From a virus, in the IMG/VR virus record IMGVR_UViG_3300014050_000077, positions 1,028 through 34,741 of that record: a stretch of 33,714 nt of DNA; one strand, written 5' to 3'. The position numbers were made by a program, and so were the translations under genes. Numbering within the stretch: the first letter of the stretch is position 1; each line of letters begins with the position of its first letter. This document shows, one piece after another, positions 8,878 to 15,301 of this stretch. The notes below the pieces were generated by a model. It ran no database searches, had not been told where the DNA came from, and saw nothing but the letters and a program-made list of their open reading frames with translations.

Positions 8878-9996
8878 TTATTTGCTTTCTTTAACTTCCT
8901 CCAACTCCATCGCCTTCTTACTGGCCTCAACAATATCCTGCGCTGTTATATTCCGCAGAGCGTTACACCAGTATTGAGTTTTCGGGGTGCGATTGCTCGC
9001 ATCCTTACACTTAGCTTGTGGCAACCCAGCGTGCGGTCGGCAAGGTGCGTGTGGGCAAGTATCAGGCTTAAACACCGATACGTTCTTACTATAATAAGTC
9101 ATTCTGTCGGCGGGGTCGTAGCTTCCCCACAACGACACACACGGTGTATCCAACCCAGCAGCCATGTGGTTGACAGAGCTATCGGGCGCGACAACAAAGT
9201 CAGCCCCGCTGATAATCGGGAACAGCGAGCGAACAGCCTTGGTGCAATTGAATAGGTCGATCACCCTGGGATGATCCACCTTAAAGTTGTTTGAGTTGTC
9301 CAGCCCGATAATCACAGCGTGATGCTTTGGATAAGCCTCAAGCAACGCCAGCACCGCCTCCTGCCCCATCGTTGGCGGGTAGGTGCGGGTAGGACCACTG
9401 GACGAAACGTGGTAAGCAAAGAACGGACTAGGCAACGGCCACTTGCCCATCGCCTTTAGCTCTTCGTGGTCTGGCTCGATGAGATGTAGGACTGGCTTAC
9501 AATACTTAGCCATACTCTTCTCATCCCACACACCCATCCACTCGTAGATCCTCTGGTAGCAGTTACCAGGACCAGTGCCTAGCTTCGTGTTGCCTACCTG
9601 CCCGCTGAACAAATCATCCGTAGGCAAGTGAGCGTCAAAAGAATCCCACGCCTCCAGCGAGGATGGCAGCGGCCACAGCTTTGCACCCAGCCCAGCGTAG
9701 AGAGGCAGGTTGCGAGCAGGTGCGTAAACCTCCACAACCCCGCCCGACTCTTGCACCAAGTAGTTGACGAAGGAAGTAGCGATGATTGCGTCACCGATTG
9801 CACCAGCGCGGTAGACGGCTGTTGCCCCACCAGCAGCGCGCCCCTTGTAGTACGGCTTGATCTTATGTGGGCAAGGGATTGAATCGTCCCAGATTGGTCC
9901 AGTTAACTCATCGGGCAACACATAGGTTGTGCGGGGGTAGAGCATATTGTCATCGACCTTGTGAATTGCGTTTGTGTTGTTAGTCCATAGTTTCAT
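8878..9996 (-). CDS. Glycosyltransferase, GT9 (heptosyltransferase-like)
   Basis: The 372-residue product starts at ATG 9996 with AGGAG about nine bases upstream, inside the last codons of the methyltransferase gene. The GT-B fold is shown by a glycine-rich N-terminal loop (YRAGAIGDAIIATSFVNYL, about 62-80) and by the C-terminal nucleotide-sugar motif (GADFVVAPDSSVNHMAAGLD, about 264-283, then PCVSLWG). This is the pattern of ADP-heptose:LPS heptosyltransferases and GT9 relatives. Several late cysteines and histidines (DTCPHAPCRPHAG, YWCNALRN) are unusual. It could glycosylate modified phage DNA bases or host surface glycans. Context with the methyltransferase and oxygenase favours DNA, but this is unproven. 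Confidence 0.8.
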   Translation of the reverse strand: MKLWTNNTNAIHKVDDNMLYPRTTYVLPDELTGPIWDDSIPCPHKIKPYYKGRAAGGATAVYRAGAIGDAIIATSFVNYLVQESGGVVEVYAPARNLPLYAGLGAKLWPLPSSLEAWDSFDAHLPTDDLFSGQVGNTKLGTGPGNCYQRIYEWMGVWDEKSMAKYCKPVLHLIEPDHEELKAMGKWPLPSPFFAYHVSSSGPTRTYPPTMGQEAVLALLEAYPKHHAVIIGLDNSNNFKVDHPRVIDLFNCTKAVRSLFPIISGADFVVAPDSSVNHMAAGLDTPCVSLWGSYDPADRMTYYSKNVSVFKPDTCPHAPCRPHAGLPQAKCKDASNRTPKTQYWCNALRNITAQDIVEASKKAMELEEVKESK

Positions 9997-10000
9997 TTGG

Positions 10001-10768
10001 TTATTCTCCTATTACTTGGTTGATGCATCTGATGATTTCTGACGCGACTTGCGGGACGAGAGCGTTTCCAAGTCCTTTAATTCGTTCAGCTCTGTATGGT
10101 TTTGTGGGTACCCCATCATAAACTCCAAAAGATTCGGACATAATCTTTTTCCCGTTAACTTTGCATATTGTTCCGCAAGATTCCCATTCGGATGAACATC
10201 GTATCTTTTTGCCAAACTCCTCGCCGAAAATGATGCCCTCTTGCTTCCGTCCGATGCTGACGGAGTAAGCCACAATCCAGATTCTTTTCCTGAGATGTGG
10301 TGCGCCAAACATAGCGGCTGGAACAACTTGCCATTCCGCATCGTACCCGACGTCGGCAAGCGATTGTAAAACGATGTCGAGTCCTTGGTTCGTGAGTGCC
10401 TGGACGTTTTCTGCGACCACGAACTTTGGCCTTGCCTCCTTGATAATCCTTTGCATTTCAAACCAGAGTCCGCTTCTTTGGCCATCAATTCCGTTTGATT
10501 CAAACTTTCCTTGAGTTGTCCAAGACTTTGCGTAGCTAATGTCTTGGCAGGGGAACCCACCTGTGAGAAGAGTGACTCCTGCGTATAGCTCGCCTCGTAC
10601 TTCTCGGATGTCTTTGTGGCACGGGACTTCTGGCCAGTGCTTTTTGAGAACGGCTTGGGCGTATGGTTCGTTGTCACAGAATCCGACGGTTCTATATCCG
10701 TTCCACTTTGCGGCCAAGGCAAATCCACCGATCCCGCTGAATAAGTCGAGGTGTGTTTTTTCATTCAC
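10001..10768 (-). CDS. dcm: C5-cytosine DNA methyltransferase
   Basis: The 255-residue product starts at a GTG (10768) ten bases after AAAGGAG. It has the classical ordered motifs: I DLFSGIGGF at 8-16, IV GGFPCQDIS at 70-78 with catalytic Cys74, VI AENV at 119-122, VIII near LRKRIWIVAY at 159-168, and X GLGNALVPQVA at 232-242. The region between VIII and X is short, so the target recognition domain is minimal. It transfers methyl from S-adenosylmethionine to C5 of cytosine, protecting phage DNA or starting further modification. A second frame is open across almost the whole gene and is discussed as a finding. Confidence 0.93.
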   Translation of the reverse strand: MNEKTHLDLFSGIGGFALAAKWNGYRTVGFCDNEPYAQAVLKKHWPEVPCHKDIREVRGELYAGVTLLTGGFPCQDISYAKSWTTQGKFESNGIDGQRSGLWFEMQRIIKEARPKFVVAENVQALTNQGLDIVLQSLADVGYDAEWQVVPAAMFGAPHLRKRIWIVAYSVSIGRKQEGIIFGEEFGKKIRCSSEWESCGTICKVNGKKIMSESFGVYDGVPTKPYRAERIKGLGNALVPQVASEIIRCINQVIGE

Positions 10769-10940
10769 TTTCTATTAACTCCTTTGCTATTAGTGCGGCG
10801 GCATCGACCATGGTGATAATTTGGATAATGTCAATCACTCTTCCGTGAGTCGCGCGATCCCTCTCAACTACAAGCTTATTGCGTGCAATTGAAAGGATCT
10901 CGCGCGCCCACTTGAGCCTAGCTTTAGACTCGACCAGCAT
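10761..10940 (-). CDS. Small hypothetical helical protein
   Basis: A 59-residue frame runs from ATG 10940, which overlaps the preceding TAA as TAATG, to TGA 10763-10761. The product is a run of helices (ESKARLKWAREILSIARNKL, IDIIQIITMVDAAALIAKEL). It carries the ribosome-binding site (AAAGGAG) of the methyltransferase gene in its last codons. No family is recognised. Its coupling on both sides makes it likely to be real. Confidence 0.6.
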   Translation of the reverse strand: MLVESKARLKWAREILSIARNKLVVERDRATHGRVIDIIQIITMVDAAALIAKELIESE

Positions 10941-11122
10941 TACGAGCCTGACCGCATCCGAAACTTACGAGGCGATTTGTTGCTCTTCCCAGCAGCAGAG
11001 AGTGCTATCGCAATCATCTGCTGACGCGAACGAGGCGTTCCACCAGCACCGCGAGCCTTGCCCTTCTTCTTATTGTCCATAGCCAACTCATGCATATTCT
11101 TTGATACGTCTTTTCCGAGCAT
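10940..11122 (-). CDS. Small basic phage protein with PRSRQQMIAIAL motif
   Basis: The 60-residue product starts at ATG 11122 with AAGGAG eight bases upstream. It is strongly basic (NKKKGKARGAGGTPRSRQQM) and contains PRSRQQMIAIALSAAGKS, resembling short phage proteins in which a SRKQAIAIAL-type helix follows a basic stretch. Such proteins are common, often near DNA metabolism genes, and have no known activity. Its TAA overlaps the next ATG. Confidence 0.65.
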   Translation of the reverse strand: MLGKDVSKNMHELAMDNKKKGKARGAGGTPRSRQQMIAIALSAAGKSNKSPRKFRMRSGS

Positions 11123-11134
11123 ATTCTATTCTCC

Positions 11135-11353
11135 TTATATGTTGTAATAGGGATTAGGCACTGATGGTGCTTGTACCCCGAAACTTGGGTTCTCGCATCT
11201 GCGACAATCGCGCAGGTCAAAGTCAAGTATCTCGCCAGAGTTAAGCATGACTGTAAATATCTTGTTATGATCCATGCCATAGTCCGTAACAATAAAAGCC
11301 AAGCCTTCACCCTTGGGTGTCATCATCCATAGTTCTGGATTGAGTTGGATCAT
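11135..11353 (-). CDS. Hypothetical protein
   Basis: The ATG at 11353 overlaps the TGA of the oxygenase gene (ATGA) and gives 72 residues; the longer frame to 11404 is an extension into that gene. The product looks beta-rich (GLAFIVTDYGMDHNKIFTVM, SGEILDFDLRDCRRCENPSF) and ends in VPNPYYNI. An SH3-like or OB-like barrel is possible from the strand pattern. The CRRC could bind a metal. No family is recognised. Confidence 0.65.
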   Translation of the reverse strand: MIQLNPELWMMTPKGEGLAFIVTDYGMDHNKIFTVMLNSGEILDFDLRDCRRCENPSFGVQAPSVPNPYYNI

Positions 11354-11922
11354 TTCCAAGCAGGTCCAGTAAACCAAGCCACCAACACCCAGCGCGTTCC
11401 CCATATTGGCGCACGCGCACGATGCTCAATGTAGGACGGAAACCAGCAACCAGCCCCCTGCTCTCGGATGAACTGAGTGTTCACCATATCAGCCTTAACC
11501 TGCAACCCGCCTCCGATATACTCCTCTGGTGCGGACAGGTTAACCACCGCCGTAAGCTTGCGTACTGGTGGTTCGGATGTGTAGGTGTCGTAGTGCCAAG
11601 AGAACTTCTGTAGTGGGCGGTATCGCAGGATCTGCAACTGCTGGATGCCTTGGATGTCGAAACGCCATTGCTCGGCATTGATGCTTTCCGTAATCTCGCG
11701 CATGATATTGTAGATCCAGTTGTGATGCTTGGCATAAGGTATCCAGCACGATGAGCAGGTTCGCGTACGCGATACCGTACGGGTAACGCCATCCTTCGAC
11801 AACACTGGCGCACGCTTCATTCCGATTACTTCCGCATCTTGGCGCAGCATCTCGCATTGCGTCTTGGTTAGGACGTAGCGGTCCACTGAAGCGGTTAATA
11901 CCTTCTGCTTAAACTCGCTCAT
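11350..11922 (-). CDS. 2-oxoglutarate/Fe(II)-dependent oxygenase
   Basis: The 190-residue product starts at ATG 11922 (ATGA with the preceding gene, AAGGAG upstream). The double-stranded beta-helix core has the iron ligands H110 and D112 in FSWHYD, the distal H167 in SYIEHRA and R177 ten residues later for 2-oxoglutarate. This is the P4H/PKHD spacing, with RKLTAVVNLS and EYIGGGLQ as typical strands. An added N-terminal segment contains CSSCW. It hydroxylates a substrate using O2 and 2-oxoglutarate. Phage members act on proteins or on nucleic-acid bases. Its place between a C5-methyltransferase and glycosyltransferases raises base oxidation as a possibility. Confidence 0.85.
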   Translation of the reverse strand: MSEFKQKVLTASVDRYVLTKTQCEMLRQDAEVIGMKRAPVLSKDGVTRTVSRTRTCSSCWIPYAKHHNWIYNIMREITESINAEQWRFDIQGIQQLQILRYRPLQKFSWHYDTYTSEPPVRKLTAVVNLSAPEEYIGGGLQVKADMVNTQFIREQGAGCWFPSYIEHRARAPIWGTRWVLVAWFTGPAWK

Positions 11923-12122
11923 TTGATCTCCTTGGATAACTGAAGCAATGCTTGGTTTAGCGCGTACTCAAAGCACGCCTTCTTGTCTTTGACAATATGC
12001 TGGCGGCCAGCCTCGGCCATAGCTTCATATAAATCATCGTCAACATTGACTGTAATCTTGACTGCATCGTACTCCTCAACCTTTAGAAGTTTAATATGTT
12101 TCCCAGCTTTTCTTTTCCTCAT
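11919..12122 (-). CDS. Small ribbon-helix-helix-like protein
   Basis: The 67-residue product starts at ATG 12122, overlapping the stop of the membrane peptide gene. A basic N-terminus (RKRKAGKHIKLLK) precedes a beta strand and two helices (VKITVNVDDDLYEAMAEAGR, FEYALNQALLQLSKEI). The strand-helix-helix arrangement is that of ribbon-helix-helix DNA-binding proteins. It could be a local transcription regulator, but family membership is tentative. Confidence 0.55.
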   Translation of the reverse strand: MRKRKAGKHIKLLKVEEYDAVKITVNVDDDLYEAMAEAGRQHIVKDKKACFEYALNQALLQLSKEIK

Positions 12123-12247
12123 AGGTCCAGTTCCTTTTTTATGTAGTCAACCAATTTGAAGATGATGTACAACGCACAAAAGATTGCCGACAAAGTGATC
12201 CAACTGTAAAGCACAAACCAACAGACCACCCAAACAACTCCAGCCAT
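12119..12247 (-). CDS. 42-residue membrane peptide
   Basis: The ATG at 12247 follows the TGA of the preceding gene by one base (TGATATG), and the TGA at 12121-12119 overlaps the next ATG. The product is hydrophobic over its first 30 residues (VVWVVCWFVLYSWITLSAIF then CALYIIFKLV) and ends DYIKKELDL, so one or two membrane spans are expected. The function is unknown. Confidence 0.55.
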   Translation of the reverse strand: MAGVVWVVCWFVLYSWITLSAIFCALYIIFKLVDYIKKELDL

Positions 12248-12248
12248 A

Positions 12249-12569
12249 TCAAGTAGGCAGAACATAGTCGTTTTCCTTTAGCTTTCGTAACAGCGTTCTA
12301 TTATCAATCTGCACCCCGCTGGCTCTGCACCACCAGGAGACAACGCCAGTCTTAAAGTCACGCAGTAGCTTCTGAACTTCGTGTGAGTTCTTATACTCAA
12401 GCGCATCGTTGAGTGGCACGCCTTGGTGATCCTTAATGATCTTCATACCCTTAACCATCCCACGCTTGCGCAGCATCCGCAGATCGCGGATAGCTTGGAG
12501 TGCAACCTCCCCAGCCAACTGCTGCACCCTGTCATCGTAATCACCGCGACATAACTGGGTTGACCTCAC
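12249..12569 (-). CDS. Hypothetical protein
   Basis: The 106-residue product starts at a GTG at 12569 that overlaps the TGA of the glycosyltransferase gene as GTGA. It is mostly helical and basic (GEVALQAIRDLRMLRKRGMV, SHEVQKLLRDFKTGVVSWWC), with a C-terminal IDNRTLLRKLKEND helix that could read DNA. No family is recognised. Its location inside the modification operon suggests a role there but gives no mechanism. Confidence 0.65.
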   Translation of the reverse strand: MRSTQLCRGDYDDRVQQLAGEVALQAIRDLRMLRKRGMVKGMKIIKDHQGVPLNDALEYKNSHEVQKLLRDFKTGVVSWWCRASGVQIDNRTLLRKLKENDYVLPT

Positions 12570-13231
12570 CGACCTAGCTCCACCAGCTTTGCTTCGTCTT
12601 CTTTAATCTGGTTAGCTAACTTAACCAGATCGTTTGATTGCCCAGCGTAGTGAATAATCATCGCATCCTTGTAGCGGTCCAAACCAAAGTGCGACTCAAC
12701 GCTTGTCATACAATTGAAGGACGGGTCAAGCTCGGTCAGCGGAATGTTCCATAGGTGCGCCATCACGTTTAGCCAGGTCTGCTCGGCAAAGTGATTTGGA
12801 TGAAGGCCAATGGGTGGCATTGATAATATACCAACGGCCTTGGTATGAACTACGAACACGCCAGTGTTTACATAGAACTTAGGCTCAATCACTCCGCCGA
12901 AGGCTCCAGCCAGCTTCACCATATCTGGCTTGCGGTCCAAGTAAGCTCCCTCATCAAAGGCACAGAATACGCCAGCGTCATCGGATAACTTCGGGCAATC
13001 GTTTGCAATCAAAACATCAGCGTCAACAAATGTCACTTGGTCATAGTGTTTAGTAGCCATGATATTTCCAATCGCAGACTTGGAGTATTGGGCTGGATGC
13101 GTAAGAGGCTTGTCGATTAGAATGAAGTCAACGCTATGGCGTTTGCAGTACGCCTCCATCCTTGGCCTAGTAAGATCAATAATCTTCTGCCAATCCTCAC
13201 CAAACGATTGTGTGACTAATGCTTGTTTCAT
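12566..13231 (-). CDS. GT-A-fold glycosyltransferase (GT8-like)
   Basis: The ATG at 13231 overlaps the preceding TGA (ATGA), giving 221 residues; an in-frame ATG at 13246 is less likely. The N-terminus MKQALVTQSFGEDW is the first Rossmann strand, VTFVDADVLI at 67-75 carries the metal-binding DxD (D70, D72), YVNTGVFVV at 120-128 is the acceptor-site loop, and IHYAGQSN near 193-200 is the late histidine region of GT8-type enzymes. It transfers a sugar from a nucleotide donor. Being in one operon with a methyltransferase and an oxygenase makes DNA bases a plausible acceptor. Virion or surface glycans remain alternatives. Confidence 0.75.
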   Translation of the reverse strand: MKQALVTQSFGEDWQKIIDLTRPRMEAYCKRHSVDFILIDKPLTHPAQYSKSAIGNIMATKHYDQVTFVDADVLIANDCPKLSDDAGVFCAFDEGAYLDRKPDMVKLAGAFGGVIEPKFYVNTGVFVVHTKAVGILSMPPIGLHPNHFAEQTWLNVMAHLWNIPLTELDPSFNCMTSVESHFGLDRYKDAMIIHYAGQSNDLVKLANQIKEDEAKLVELGR

Positions 13232-13383
13232 TTTACGTTCTTCCATATTTTGCCATGCTCATCCAGCGCGGATGACCAGATCATCATCTTGTTGTAGATG
13301 CTGTAGGCGCAGCCAAACCTCATCAGCGTTAGGCTAATCAGATCACCGATCTGATAACAGATCCAAGACAAGGCAAGTTTCAT
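13228..13383 (-). CDS. 51-residue hydrophobic small protein
   Basis: A frame from ATG 13383 (overlapping TGA 13382-13380 of the gene before it) to TGA 13230-13228 (overlapping the glycosyltransferase ATG) encodes 51 residues. The first 30 are hydrophobic (KLALSWICYQIGDLISLTLM, RFGCAYSIY), suggesting membrane association, and the tail is polar (DEHGKIWKNVK). An exact inverted repeat ATCAGATC/GATCTGAT lies within the coding sequence at 13337-13355. It might help anchor the downstream glycosyltransferase, but no family is recognised. Confidence 0.6.
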   Translation of the reverse strand: MKLALSWICYQIGDLISLTLMRFGCAYSIYNKMMIWSSALDEHGKIWKNVK

Positions 13384-13550
13384 TCTCTTGGATACTTATT
13401 GTTTCCATCGTGATCGCAGAACTTCTGGAACGATTCCTCGGTTTCAGACTCATCCTCATCATTGGTTTTGTCTCCGTAATTGGAGTAAAGCCAAGGGCGA
13501 GGCTTGCTAAAAAACTCATCCCAATCTTTGTCTATTTCTTCTTGGTTCAT
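13380..13550 (-). CDS. Small acidic protein
   Basis: The ATG at 13550 overlaps the stop of the preceding gene and has AGAGG upstream, giving 56 residues; the longer frame to 13595 runs into that gene. It is very acidic (NQEEIDKDWDEFFSKPRPW, KTNDEDESETEESFQKF). Low-complexity acidic proteins of this size can imitate DNA charge, but no known anti-restriction family is recognised. Confidence 0.6.
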   Translation of the reverse strand: MNQEEIDKDWDEFFSKPRPWLYSNYGDKTNDEDESETEESFQKFCDHDGNNKYPRE

Positions 13551-13843
13551 AGTCTTGTTACCTCTTTCTTTATTTGTGCTAACGTGAACAGGCATCGTAC
13601 CAGAGCGCGCTCAAGGTGGTCAACGCTTGTTTCGCCGTTGTTGTCAGGGCAAGGCATGGATTTGTGGAGCTGCATCTGTGCCGTGGCTAGGTGGCGAACA
13701 GCCCTAGCAATATGGTAATCGTGGGTAGGCCGATCCTTCTCCAGCCAATCTCCATAACCAGACTTATCCGATCCCTTACCCATCACGCGCCAGACTATCT
13801 CCTGCGCAGCAAGACCCATCTCTTGAATTGTCGGTGCAGTCAT
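13547..13843 (-). CDS. Helical protein resembling the DUF5664-type phage family
   Basis: The ATG at 13843 overlaps the preceding TGA (ATGA) and gives 98 residues. Segments DYHIARAVRHLATAQMQLHK and GETSVDHLERALVRCLFTLA give a paired-helix layout with conserved histidine and acidic residues. I recall a similar arrangement in DUF5664 (dATP/dGTP diphosphohydrolase-like) proteins of phages. If correct it would adjust deoxynucleotide pools. The similarity is partial, so the function is tentative. Confidence 0.45.
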   Translation of the reverse strand: MTAPTIQEMGLAAQEIVWRVMGKGSDKSGYGDWLEKDRPTHDYHIARAVRHLATAQMQLHKSMPCPDNNGETSVDHLERALVRCLFTLAQIKKEVTRL

Positions 13844-14253
13844 TTTGCGCACCTAATAATTGTTTCAGCAAAATCTTTAAGTTCTTTAATTGCATTTTCC
13901 AGCGTCCCAACATTCCTTGCCCTAGCCAACAACCAAGGCGATGGGTTGTCATTTGATGTAAAAAATAGAACTGGCTTACCCTTCATATGCGCGTAAAAAA
14001 TTTCCATACCAGTTCCCCAGCCTGGTTTATCGCAATTTGCCAGAACCACACTTGAGTTATCTACACACATCATATCCTCCTTTACTATTGTTGAGCTGTT
14101 TACTGTGTCGAATTTTGTACCACGATAATCCCTATCCAGAGGATTTAATACATCATAAATCTCTGACAAACTTTCGGACGCAATTCTGCGCCACTCCTGC
14201 TCTTCGTTGGTTGTTCCGTAGATTGCGCCAGCAAGATATACTTTTGGTTTCAT
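13840..14253 (-). CDS. Nucleoside 2-deoxyribosyltransferase-like protein
   Basis: The 137-residue product starts at ATG 14253 (ATGA). It shows KVYLAGAIYG at the start, VLNPLDRDYRG near 35-45, a DxxSSVVLANCD strand at about 65-75, GWGTGMEIFYAH at 79-89 with the catalytic-type Glu84, and GKPVLFF. These are features of the nucleoside 2-deoxyribosyltransferase superfamily, whose members swap bases on deoxyribose or cleave modified nucleotides. Next to QueD and a DpdA-like gene, it could act in nucleotide salvage or in clearing an unwanted base. Confidence 0.78.
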   Translation of the reverse strand: MKPKVYLAGAIYGTTNEEQEWRRIASESLSEIYDVLNPLDRDYRGTKFDTVNSSTIVKEDMMCVDNSSVVLANCDKPGWGTGMEIFYAHMKGKPVLFFTSNDNPSPWLLARARNVGTLENAIKELKDFAETIIRCAK

Positions 14254-14687
14254 ATATTTTCTACCCTTATCCTATTGTTTGAGCCTTCACGCAAAACAAT
14301 AGCCCTCAATTTCAGCTTTTCGCATTCAAACATTTTTAGCCTCTTAAAAAACCAGTTCCCAACATTTTCTAAAGTAGTAGGAAAATCAAATACCTCGTTT
14401 AAATTGCTGTGGTCGCAGGACCGAACAAGTGTTTGAGTATAGTCTTTAAGCTCGCCAAACGGATAAATCATAGGCTCTTGATCCGTTGGAAAACCCTCCC
14501 ACTCGACATCAAGCGAGTAGGTGTGGCCGTGATTACGGAAACATTTCATAAGACCAACCAATGAGTTGTGATGCAAATATAAAAAGTCTTCTTTTTTCAA
14601 ATTGTGTGAAGCATCAAATTTAAACGACTGTATGACAGTGTATTTGACTCCACCTAGTTTTGTTTTGTTTAGGTCTTTAGCAAACAT
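14250..14687 (-). CDS. queD: 6-carboxytetrahydropterin synthase (QueD-like)
   Basis: The 145-residue product starts at ATG 14687 with AAGGAG six bases upstream. The family's key residues are present: zinc ligands His28 (FDASH), His53 and His55 (HGH), catalytic Cys49 four residues before HGH, Asp92-His93 in CDHSNLN, Glu134 in LREG, and the PTTLENVG helix. QueD converts dihydroneopterin triphosphate to 6-carboxy-tetrahydropterin, the second committed step to preQ0. FolE, QueE and QueC are not in this window, so they come from the host or elsewhere on the phage. The gene overlaps the DpdA-like gene by 19 bases. Confidence 0.9.
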   Translation of the reverse strand: MFAKDLNKTKLGGVKYTVIQSFKFDASHNLKKEDFLYLHHNSLVGLMKCFRNHGHTYSLDVEWEGFPTDQEPMIYPFGELKDYTQTLVRSCDHSNLNEVFDFPTTLENVGNWFFKRLKMFECEKLKLRAIVLREGSNNRIRVENI

Positions 14688-15301
14688 TTTTGACTCCTTC
14701 CGTTTCCATATTTTTCTTCTAGATATTTTATAAGAGGTTGCAATCTTTTCATTCCACCCCTAACCCAACCAGTTCCATCGCAACTTTCAACATTATTTTC
14801 ATCACATATCCACAGTCCTTCATACGAATTGACTCTTCCGCAATGAACTCTTTTACCTATGGAGCAAAACTCTGGAAGCATTTTCCACTTCCACTCAAAT
14901 GAGCCACCCATAAAAATAATTTCAGCTTCACTCGGAACATCGCTTGGAGTCATTCCGTCTTGCGCAACAAATGCAACTGGAAATTTCCACTCAGAAATTC
15001 TTTCATAATGCTTGTCCCACATTTTTAGAGTTTCATTCTTGTCCATAACCTTATCTGGACAAGCAACCCAAAGCGGCTTATTCCAACACGGGACTTTGTC
15101 CAGCATTTTATAAAACTCTTTTTCATCCCATTCTGTTTTATTTGTGAATGCGTAATAAGCCCCATTATCAAGTGCATATGGAATTACCTCTGGAAGATAT
15201 CTCCATCCATTTGGAGATATAAGCAAACCGATTGAATCCTTAAATTTACCAGCCAAGTATCCTATCATAAAGCCAGTATTATTTGTTGGCATTACGATCA
15301 C
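14669..15301 (-). CDS. dpdA: DpdA-like 7-deazaguanine DNA transglycosylase (TGT fold)
   Basis: A GTG at 15301 overlaps the preceding TGA as GTGA and gives 210 residues; ATG 15292 is an alternative. The text follows phage TGT-like DpdA proteins: PYALDNGAYYAF at about 41-52 with the acidic DNG, LWVACPDKV at 77-85, FPVAFVAQDGMTPSD at 107-121, IIFMGGSFEWK at 128-138, RVHCGRVNS at 151-159 and ESCDGTGWVRGG at 172-183. DpdA enzymes exchange guanine in DNA for a 7-deazaguanine such as preQ0. No zinc site of bacterial TGT is evident, as expected for the phage forms. The QueD gene next door supplies the precursor pathway. Confidence 0.78.
   Translation of the reverse strand: MIVMPTNNTGFMIGYLAGKFKDSIGLLISPNGWRYLPEVIPYALDNGAYYAFTNKTEWDEKEFYKMLDKVPCWNKPLWVACPDKVMDKNETLKMWDKHYERISEWKFPVAFVAQDGMTPSDVPSEAEIIFMGGSFEWKWKMLPEFCSIGKRVHCGRVNSYEGLWICDENNVESCDGTGWVRGGMKRLQPLIKYLEEKYGNGRSQKCLLKT

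Follow-up and report, generated by a model that had tools for sequence, protein, structure and literature searches.

A C5-cytosine methyltransferase may consist of two polypeptides, as M.EcoHK31I and M.EaeI do, and in M.EcoHK31I the small polypeptide is reportedly translated from another reading frame within the gene of the large one, the two having 309 and 176 amino acids (aa) and both being said to be required in vitro. One restriction-modification system has been known since 1995 to have such a two-subunit enzyme, its motif IX lying on the small polypeptide (Lee, Kam & Shaw 1995, cited in PMC3404938). PMC3404938 states that the small polypeptide of M.EcoHK31I bears motif IX only and that the predicted target recognition domain (TRD) is placed on the large subunit. 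Another two-subunit enzyme, M.AquI, splits in sequence into alpha and beta, with motifs IX-X on the small subunit (PMC3404938). Moreover, the ShiLan insertion in phage methylase genes is a homing insertion whose third frame conceals an HNH endonuclease (PMC11855218). Herein we describe a C5-methyltransferase gene of a virus, IMG/VR record IMGVR_UViG_3300014050_000077, in a stretch of 33,714 nucleotides (positions 1,028 to 34,741 of the record, called the window below and making up all but about 1 kb of a 34.7 kb contig), where a second open reading frame (ORF) is overprinted on the methyltransferase frame with a shift of +1. The two frames are as follows.

10001..10768, minus strand: C5-cytosine methyltransferase frame (alpha), GTG start (PF00145, 5e-43)
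10012..10764, minus strand: overprinted +1-frame ORF (beta), 250 aa (phrog_1008, 8e-12)

The best explanation for the region is that its genes form three independent modules, the methyltransferase gene being the most informative one. Our analysis makes it fairly probable that this gene is a two-protein C5-methyltransferase of the M.EcoHK31I kind, encoded in overlapping frames and accompanied by two other independent modules.

The alpha frame has 255 codons and holds motifs I, IV (GGFPCQ), VI (ENV), VIII (RKRIW) and X (GLGNALVPQ). The first-pass annotation, which was made from the bare sequence and saw a single DNA hypermodification operon in this region, had credited the enzyme with all motifs, and this needs to be corrected: the in-frame family matches end past motif VIII, covering only positions 4-163 of 324 in PF00145 and 2-175 of 329 in TIGR00675, and neither motif IX nor a TRD is recognisable in the alpha frame by its Pfam and NCBIfam matches. 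The +1 ORF, which that annotation missed, is seen in the ORF listing as nearly coextensive with the methyltransferase frame. It carries the motifs SGTMRNG, LWLTPSASD and RLCPNLLEFMMGYP, and the PHROG that it matches, phrog_1008, is labelled 'DNA methyltransferase'.

Of 71 distinct homologues, which were retrieved with the methyltransferase sequence and not with the +1 ORF, about 65 are free of stops over the whole +1 frame, down to 42% identity, and the +2 frame has 7-23 stops. Shuffling of synonymous codons predicts 4-9 stops in the +1 frame, and ordinary genes of the window mostly agree with their own shuffles; in the dcm gene of E. coli, used as a control, the +1 frame has 14 stops vs 19.3 expected and its longest open stretch is 88 aa. 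A frame open by chance is ruled out by the synonymous shuffles, the +2-frame control and the control genes taken together. The same +1 motifs are found in the methyltransferases of Mycobacterium, Synechococcus, Sulfitobacter, Bacteroides, Paenibacillus, Lactobacillus, Porphyromonas and Microcystis phages. For a Vibrio phage, it is the +1 frame itself that has been annotated as the gene, and for phage Lily this frame is entered as 'g62 internal gene'. For the distant phages, the stop count over the whole gene is often not significant because the open stretch begins later than in the window's group, and therefore the weight there lies on the shared motifs and on the third-base and substitution tests given below.

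A scan of genome contigs with the +1 protein gave 80 loci in more than 10 phyla, and in 80/80 of them the match sits in the +1 frame inside a C5-methyltransferase ORF, with no stand-alone copy of the +1 protein among these loci. They hold 1 stop in the +1 frame vs 255 expected and 733 in the +2 frame vs 749 expected, a count which is partly conditioned as the loci were found via the +1 protein. On one chromosome, that of a Roseovarius metagenome-assembled genome (OX638333.1; L254-L258), the overlapping methyltransferase locus is matched five times with equal score at different positions.

Selection between the two frames can be followed along the gene. When third-base identity at shared residues of distant homologues is compared with its shuffled level, over pairs that are not independent of each other, a strong excess is found across most of codons 61-240 (z up to 29), while codons 1-60 show no excess (z -1.7 to 2.3) and codons after 241 none either (z -2.9). 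The glycine codon of the (D/H/N)-G pair is GGG in 15/15. Were close ancestry the source of this identity, the N- and C-terminal flanks would not be flat, and it is therefore ruled out.

The substitutions in 19 non-overlapping close pairs draw the same line through the gene. Counted at positions 1/2/3 of the methyltransferase codons, they number 13/9/130 in codons 1-60, 43/16/138 over motifs IV-VIII, 179/22/15 in the variable region and 46/13/67 at the motif IX-like end, the variable region differing from the N-terminus with a Fisher value of 2e-59. Moreover, 172 of the 215 substitutions in the variable region alter the methyltransferase frame yet are silent in the +1 frame. Control genes have the ordinary codon-position pattern (about 15/8/77%), and seven bacterial pairs give the same substitution picture as the phages, with ordinary third-position change past the +1 stop. 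Selection at the amino-acid level acts on the +1 frame, which is conserved; over motifs I-VIII and X the conserved frame is that of the methyltransferase, and over the variable region between them it is the +1 frame.

On account of this frame-specific conservation and the precedent of M.EcoHK31I, we propose an M.EcoHK31I-like working with target recognition selected in the small subunit. Alpha, the in-frame product, would supply the catalytic motifs I-VIII and motif X, and beta, the +1-frame product from the same mRNA, would supply the variable target-recognition region and the motif IX-like end; together they would form an anti-restriction methyltransferase, in which alpha's variable part would be a largely unconstrained linker. 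Beta would be made as a separate protein, bind alpha and set the specificity. At its C-terminal end, the +1 protein reads LNPxWVEWLMGFPxGWTDL, which by eye recalls motif IX (LTPRECARLMGFE in Dcm), and the offset from MG(F/Y) in the +1 frame to the GN of motif X in alpha is 14 codons in 67/74 genes. As for the family at large, we incline slightly towards a wider proposal, namely that in a family of phage C5-methyltransferases found across many bacterial phyla the specificity subunit is fully overprinted, and that its target-recognition region evolves under +1-frame selection, apparently by WPTP-type module swaps, where the catalytic frame would be a nearly neutral linker.

The likeness to M.EcoHK31I lies in the small ORF sitting in another frame inside the large gene. 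It extends to the large polypeptide, which in the window has motifs I-VIII and X without IX, as PMC3404938 describes for M.EcoHK31I; unlike M.EcoHK31I, the overlapping genes found here are mostly of phage or prophage origin. As in M.AquI, catalytic motifs and target recognition would fall on two polypeptides, but the beta of the window, unlike the sequential small subunit of M.AquI, is embedded in a shifted frame while motif X remains in alpha. With the ShiLan insertion the window shares an out-of-frame protein within a phage methylase gene; unlike it, the +1 ORF lies over conserved motifs of the methyltransferase itself and does not match HNH. A search of openly licensed papers, whose silence is weak evidence, turned up only the ShiLan HNH case and, by name, M.EcoHK31I; we found no account of such an overlap as something general among phage C5-methyltransferases, of its breadth or of frame-switched selection.

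Several observations weigh against an M.EcoHK31I-like enzyme. Beta is a predicted protein, which AlphaFold models with low confidence (pLDDT 59.7, pTM 0.26), giving just a moderately confident beta-hairpin and one helix. The resemblance to motif IX is not significant, a profile of the +1 C-terminus ranking E. coli Dcm 16th of 201 among shuffled sequences. The candidate start of beta in the window is an ATG 4 nt past the methyltransferase GTG, and the constraint starts only near codon 60; the third-base test draws on pairs that are not independent. The comparison with M.EcoHK31I was made by description, and two queries of a plasmid collection with the +1 protein returned no record labelled M.EcoHK31I. 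Moreover, whereas PMC3404938 gives the predicted TRD of that enzyme on the large subunit, the variable region here is selected in the small-subunit frame. Finally, four homologues are frame-fused (L097, L101, L214 and L216), so that the catalytic N-terminal frame continues into the +1-frame C-terminus, two of them with repeated-base runs near the junction (a GA repeat in L101, a G run in L216). These genes may reflect mutation, sequencing or assembly error, phase variation or a clue to a frameshift mechanism.

The +1 ORF could also encode an accessory protein with no relation to the methyltransferase, such as one that inhibits a host defence, which was overprinted on it and takes no part in methylation. 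Selection on the amino acids of the +1 frame would suit such a protein, and searches of the +1 protein against Pfam and PDB gave nothing convincing and no match to any methyltransferase part. However, it was never found apart from a C5-methyltransferase at the 80 genome loci, alpha is without a recognisable TRD and motif IX in its own frame, and M.EcoHK31I provides a biochemical precedent; we therefore regard an accessory protein as unlikely. The frame-fused genes and their base runs would agree with programmed ribosomal frameshifting, by which motifs I-VIII would be fused to the target-recognition part of the +1 frame. But such a fusion would be without motif X, and the +1 frame is constrained also further upstream, across motifs IV-VIII, in a part that the fusion would not use, which makes frameshifting a rather improbable account. 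That the third-base conservation is a non-coding signal at the DNA or RNA level is scarcely credible, for although some columns are almost fixed in DNA (GAA CCC, GAT GGG), stops are avoided in the +1 frame only and the substitutions are synonymous in that frame.

Besides the two-polypeptide methyltransferase favoured here, the region holds the following genes.

8878..9996, minus strand: GT-B glycosyltransferase, GT9/heptosyltransferase-like (gt9; PF01075, 3e-8)
11350..11922, minus strand: 2-oxoglutarate (2OG)-Fe(II) oxygenase, prolyl-4-hydroxylase (P4H)/PKHD-like, with HxD...H...R (PF13640, 7e-10)
12566..13246, minus strand: GT-A type glycosyltransferase, GT8-like, weak (gtA; PF01501, 3e-4, below the cut-off)
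13840..14253, minus strand: nucleoside 2-deoxyribosyltransferase-like (ndt), third gene of the cassette described below (PF05014, 4e-11)
14250..14687, minus strand: QueD, 6-carboxytetrahydropterin synthase type, second cassette gene (PF01242, 7e-23)
14669..15301, minus strand: DpdA-like protein, first cassette gene (phrog_15826, 2e-29)

Much of the first-pass inventory stands: the genes it named are present on the minus strand and tightly packed, with profile matches for the GT9-like, C5-methyltransferase, oxygenase, QueD, DpdA-like and ndt-like proteins, and of its two glycosyltransferases the GT9-like one is borne out while the GT-A/GT8-like one is matched only weakly. It was also right in taking the oxygenase for a P4H/PKHD type rather than TET, since the closest structure is a P4H (PDB 5c5t, E 4e-6), followed weakly by a PKHD hydroxylase, and no TET/JBP family is listed for it at E <= 1. 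A collagen-like substrate for such an oxygenase was considered and dropped, the ORFs of the window being without Gly-X-Y repeats.

The proposed route, in which 5-methylcytosine is oxidised and then glycosylated, finds no support. Within the group, the presence of the oxygenase, gtA and gt9 hardly varies, with the C5-methyltransferase or without it: among 91 distinct gtA-to-gt9 regions, 53 hold both C5-methyltransferase and oxygenase, 36 the oxygenase only and 2 the C5-methyltransferase only, where the absolute frequencies are biased because the regions were fetched with these genes, but the independence is clear. Because the oxygenase and both glycosyltransferases persist without the C5-methyltransferase, oxidation and glycosylation of 5-methylcytosine are unsupported; the oxygenase, judged by gene content, is not dependent on 5-methylcytosine, and both it and the glycosyltransferases probably act on something else. 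Where the C5-methyltransferase is missing, the slot between oxygenase and gt9 (10001-11134 in the window) can be taken by other genes (L030, L022/L161 and L143), which code for Mom (PF25680, 5e-34), for an N6/N4 methyltransferase (PF01555) or for an ATPase-like protein (phrog_11143). As Mom or an N6/N4 methyltransferase can replace the C5-methyltransferase there, the slot seems to be an exchangeable position for anti-restriction genes. In 41 loci (e.g. L031 and L023), a family of about 190-210 aa (LYVKCDMEFVSDG / MATLNENIPSFKAM) stands in the slot just after the oxygenase.

The third module is a cassette of dpdA-like, queD and ndt, which keep this order at all loci recovered (17 contigs apart from the window), with ends that overlap or abut and with ndt always directly after queD. 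In the window's own group, the cassette is missing from the o15298/o13547 junction in 72/77 distinct cases; it occurs in at least 2 different genome backgrounds, and in the second one its neighbours, read by eye, are a terminase-like gene and other genes of structural size. It is thus a movable insertion, and for this reason the reading of the region as one operon with one purpose fails. That earlier view, according to which 5-methylcytosine is oxidised and glycosylated while 7-deazaguanine is inserted too, can call on the physical adjacency of the genes and on the presence of both QueD and a DpdA-like protein; against the separate insertion of the cassette, the independent occurrence of oxygenase and C5-methyltransferase, the P4H-like nature of the oxygenase and the failure to find FolE, QueC or radical SAM, it is left very improbable.

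As to the cassette genes, the GTG start of the dpdA-like gene overlaps a stop codon upstream; QueD carries CFRNHGH, that is the C-x3-HGH of the QueD type, and matches TIGR03367 at 1e-17, which is under that family's cut-off; and the candidate nucleophile of the ndt-like protein is the Glu within TGMEIFYA. The DpdA-like protein is about 31% identical to actinophage proteins annotated 'DpdA-like' and about 27-35% identical to homologues of actinophages and Vibrio phages. Its motifs DNGA, PDxVxD, QDG, GG, HxGRVN and CDGT are collinear, and those of CAjan DpdA come in the same order (DSGA, DxxGD, GG, H, CDSS). However, the profile match to CAjan DpdA by hhalign is weak (E 0.02, probability 2%), and the structure model is of low confidence with weak TIM-barrel matches. 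As the motifs are collinear but the profile match weak, we label it "transglycosylase-like" rather than a proven DpdA, and only tentatively take this small protein for a transglycosylase. Vibrio phage R29Z and Escherichia phage SHIN8 each have a relative of it within their preQ0 gene cluster (L333, L339), the one in SHIN8 being split over two ORFs near a separate full-length DpdA transglycosylase. In L007-L011, QueD is 97% identical to that of the window and the adjacent DpdA-like protein just 79%, which suggests recombination inside the cassette. In another phage group, a Mom-like fragment (YADTEQNHSGIVYRSTNWVYTG, by eye; L015:26-409) lies about 3 kb upstream of the cassette.

Like the phage DpdA/7-deazaguanine pathway (Hutinet 2019, PMC6884629), the window has a DpdA-like protein and QueD; unlike it, the protein is about 210 aa vs 306 aa for CAjan DpdA, the partner is ndt-like, and of the preQ0 synthesis genes FolE, QueD, QueE and QueC the phage has QueD only. 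Seven contigs, fragments among them, were searched for FolE, QueC and radical SAM (PF01227, PF06508, PF04055), and none was found. The 7-deazaguanine route put forward in the first pass is accordingly plausible, though incomplete in genes: host preQ0 precursors would be needed, with QueD complementing the host enzymes, and the cassette probably contributes to 7-deazaguanine DNA modification from such precursors. Hutinet 2019 (PMC6884629) remarks that 2'-deoxyribosyltransferases which went undetected may have a role in the deazaguanine modification of phages, and the dpdA-like/queD/ndt cassette makes this testable. This part of the region stands apart from the methyltransferase gene, to which we return.

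Long overlaps on the same strand with both frames conserved are rare and usually lineage-specific. The overlap of methyltransferase and +1 frame, in comparison, recurs across phages and across loci in bacterial genomes of many phyla; along a single gene, selection passes from the catalytic frame to the embedded one and back. If beta sets the specificity, this would account for the apparent lack of a TRD in these phage methyltransferases. Many genes now annotated from one frame, as 'DNA methyltransferase' or as 'hypothetical protein' (phrog_363, phrog_1008), would then hold half an enzyme, and therefore the alpha frame cloned alone could test falsely negative.

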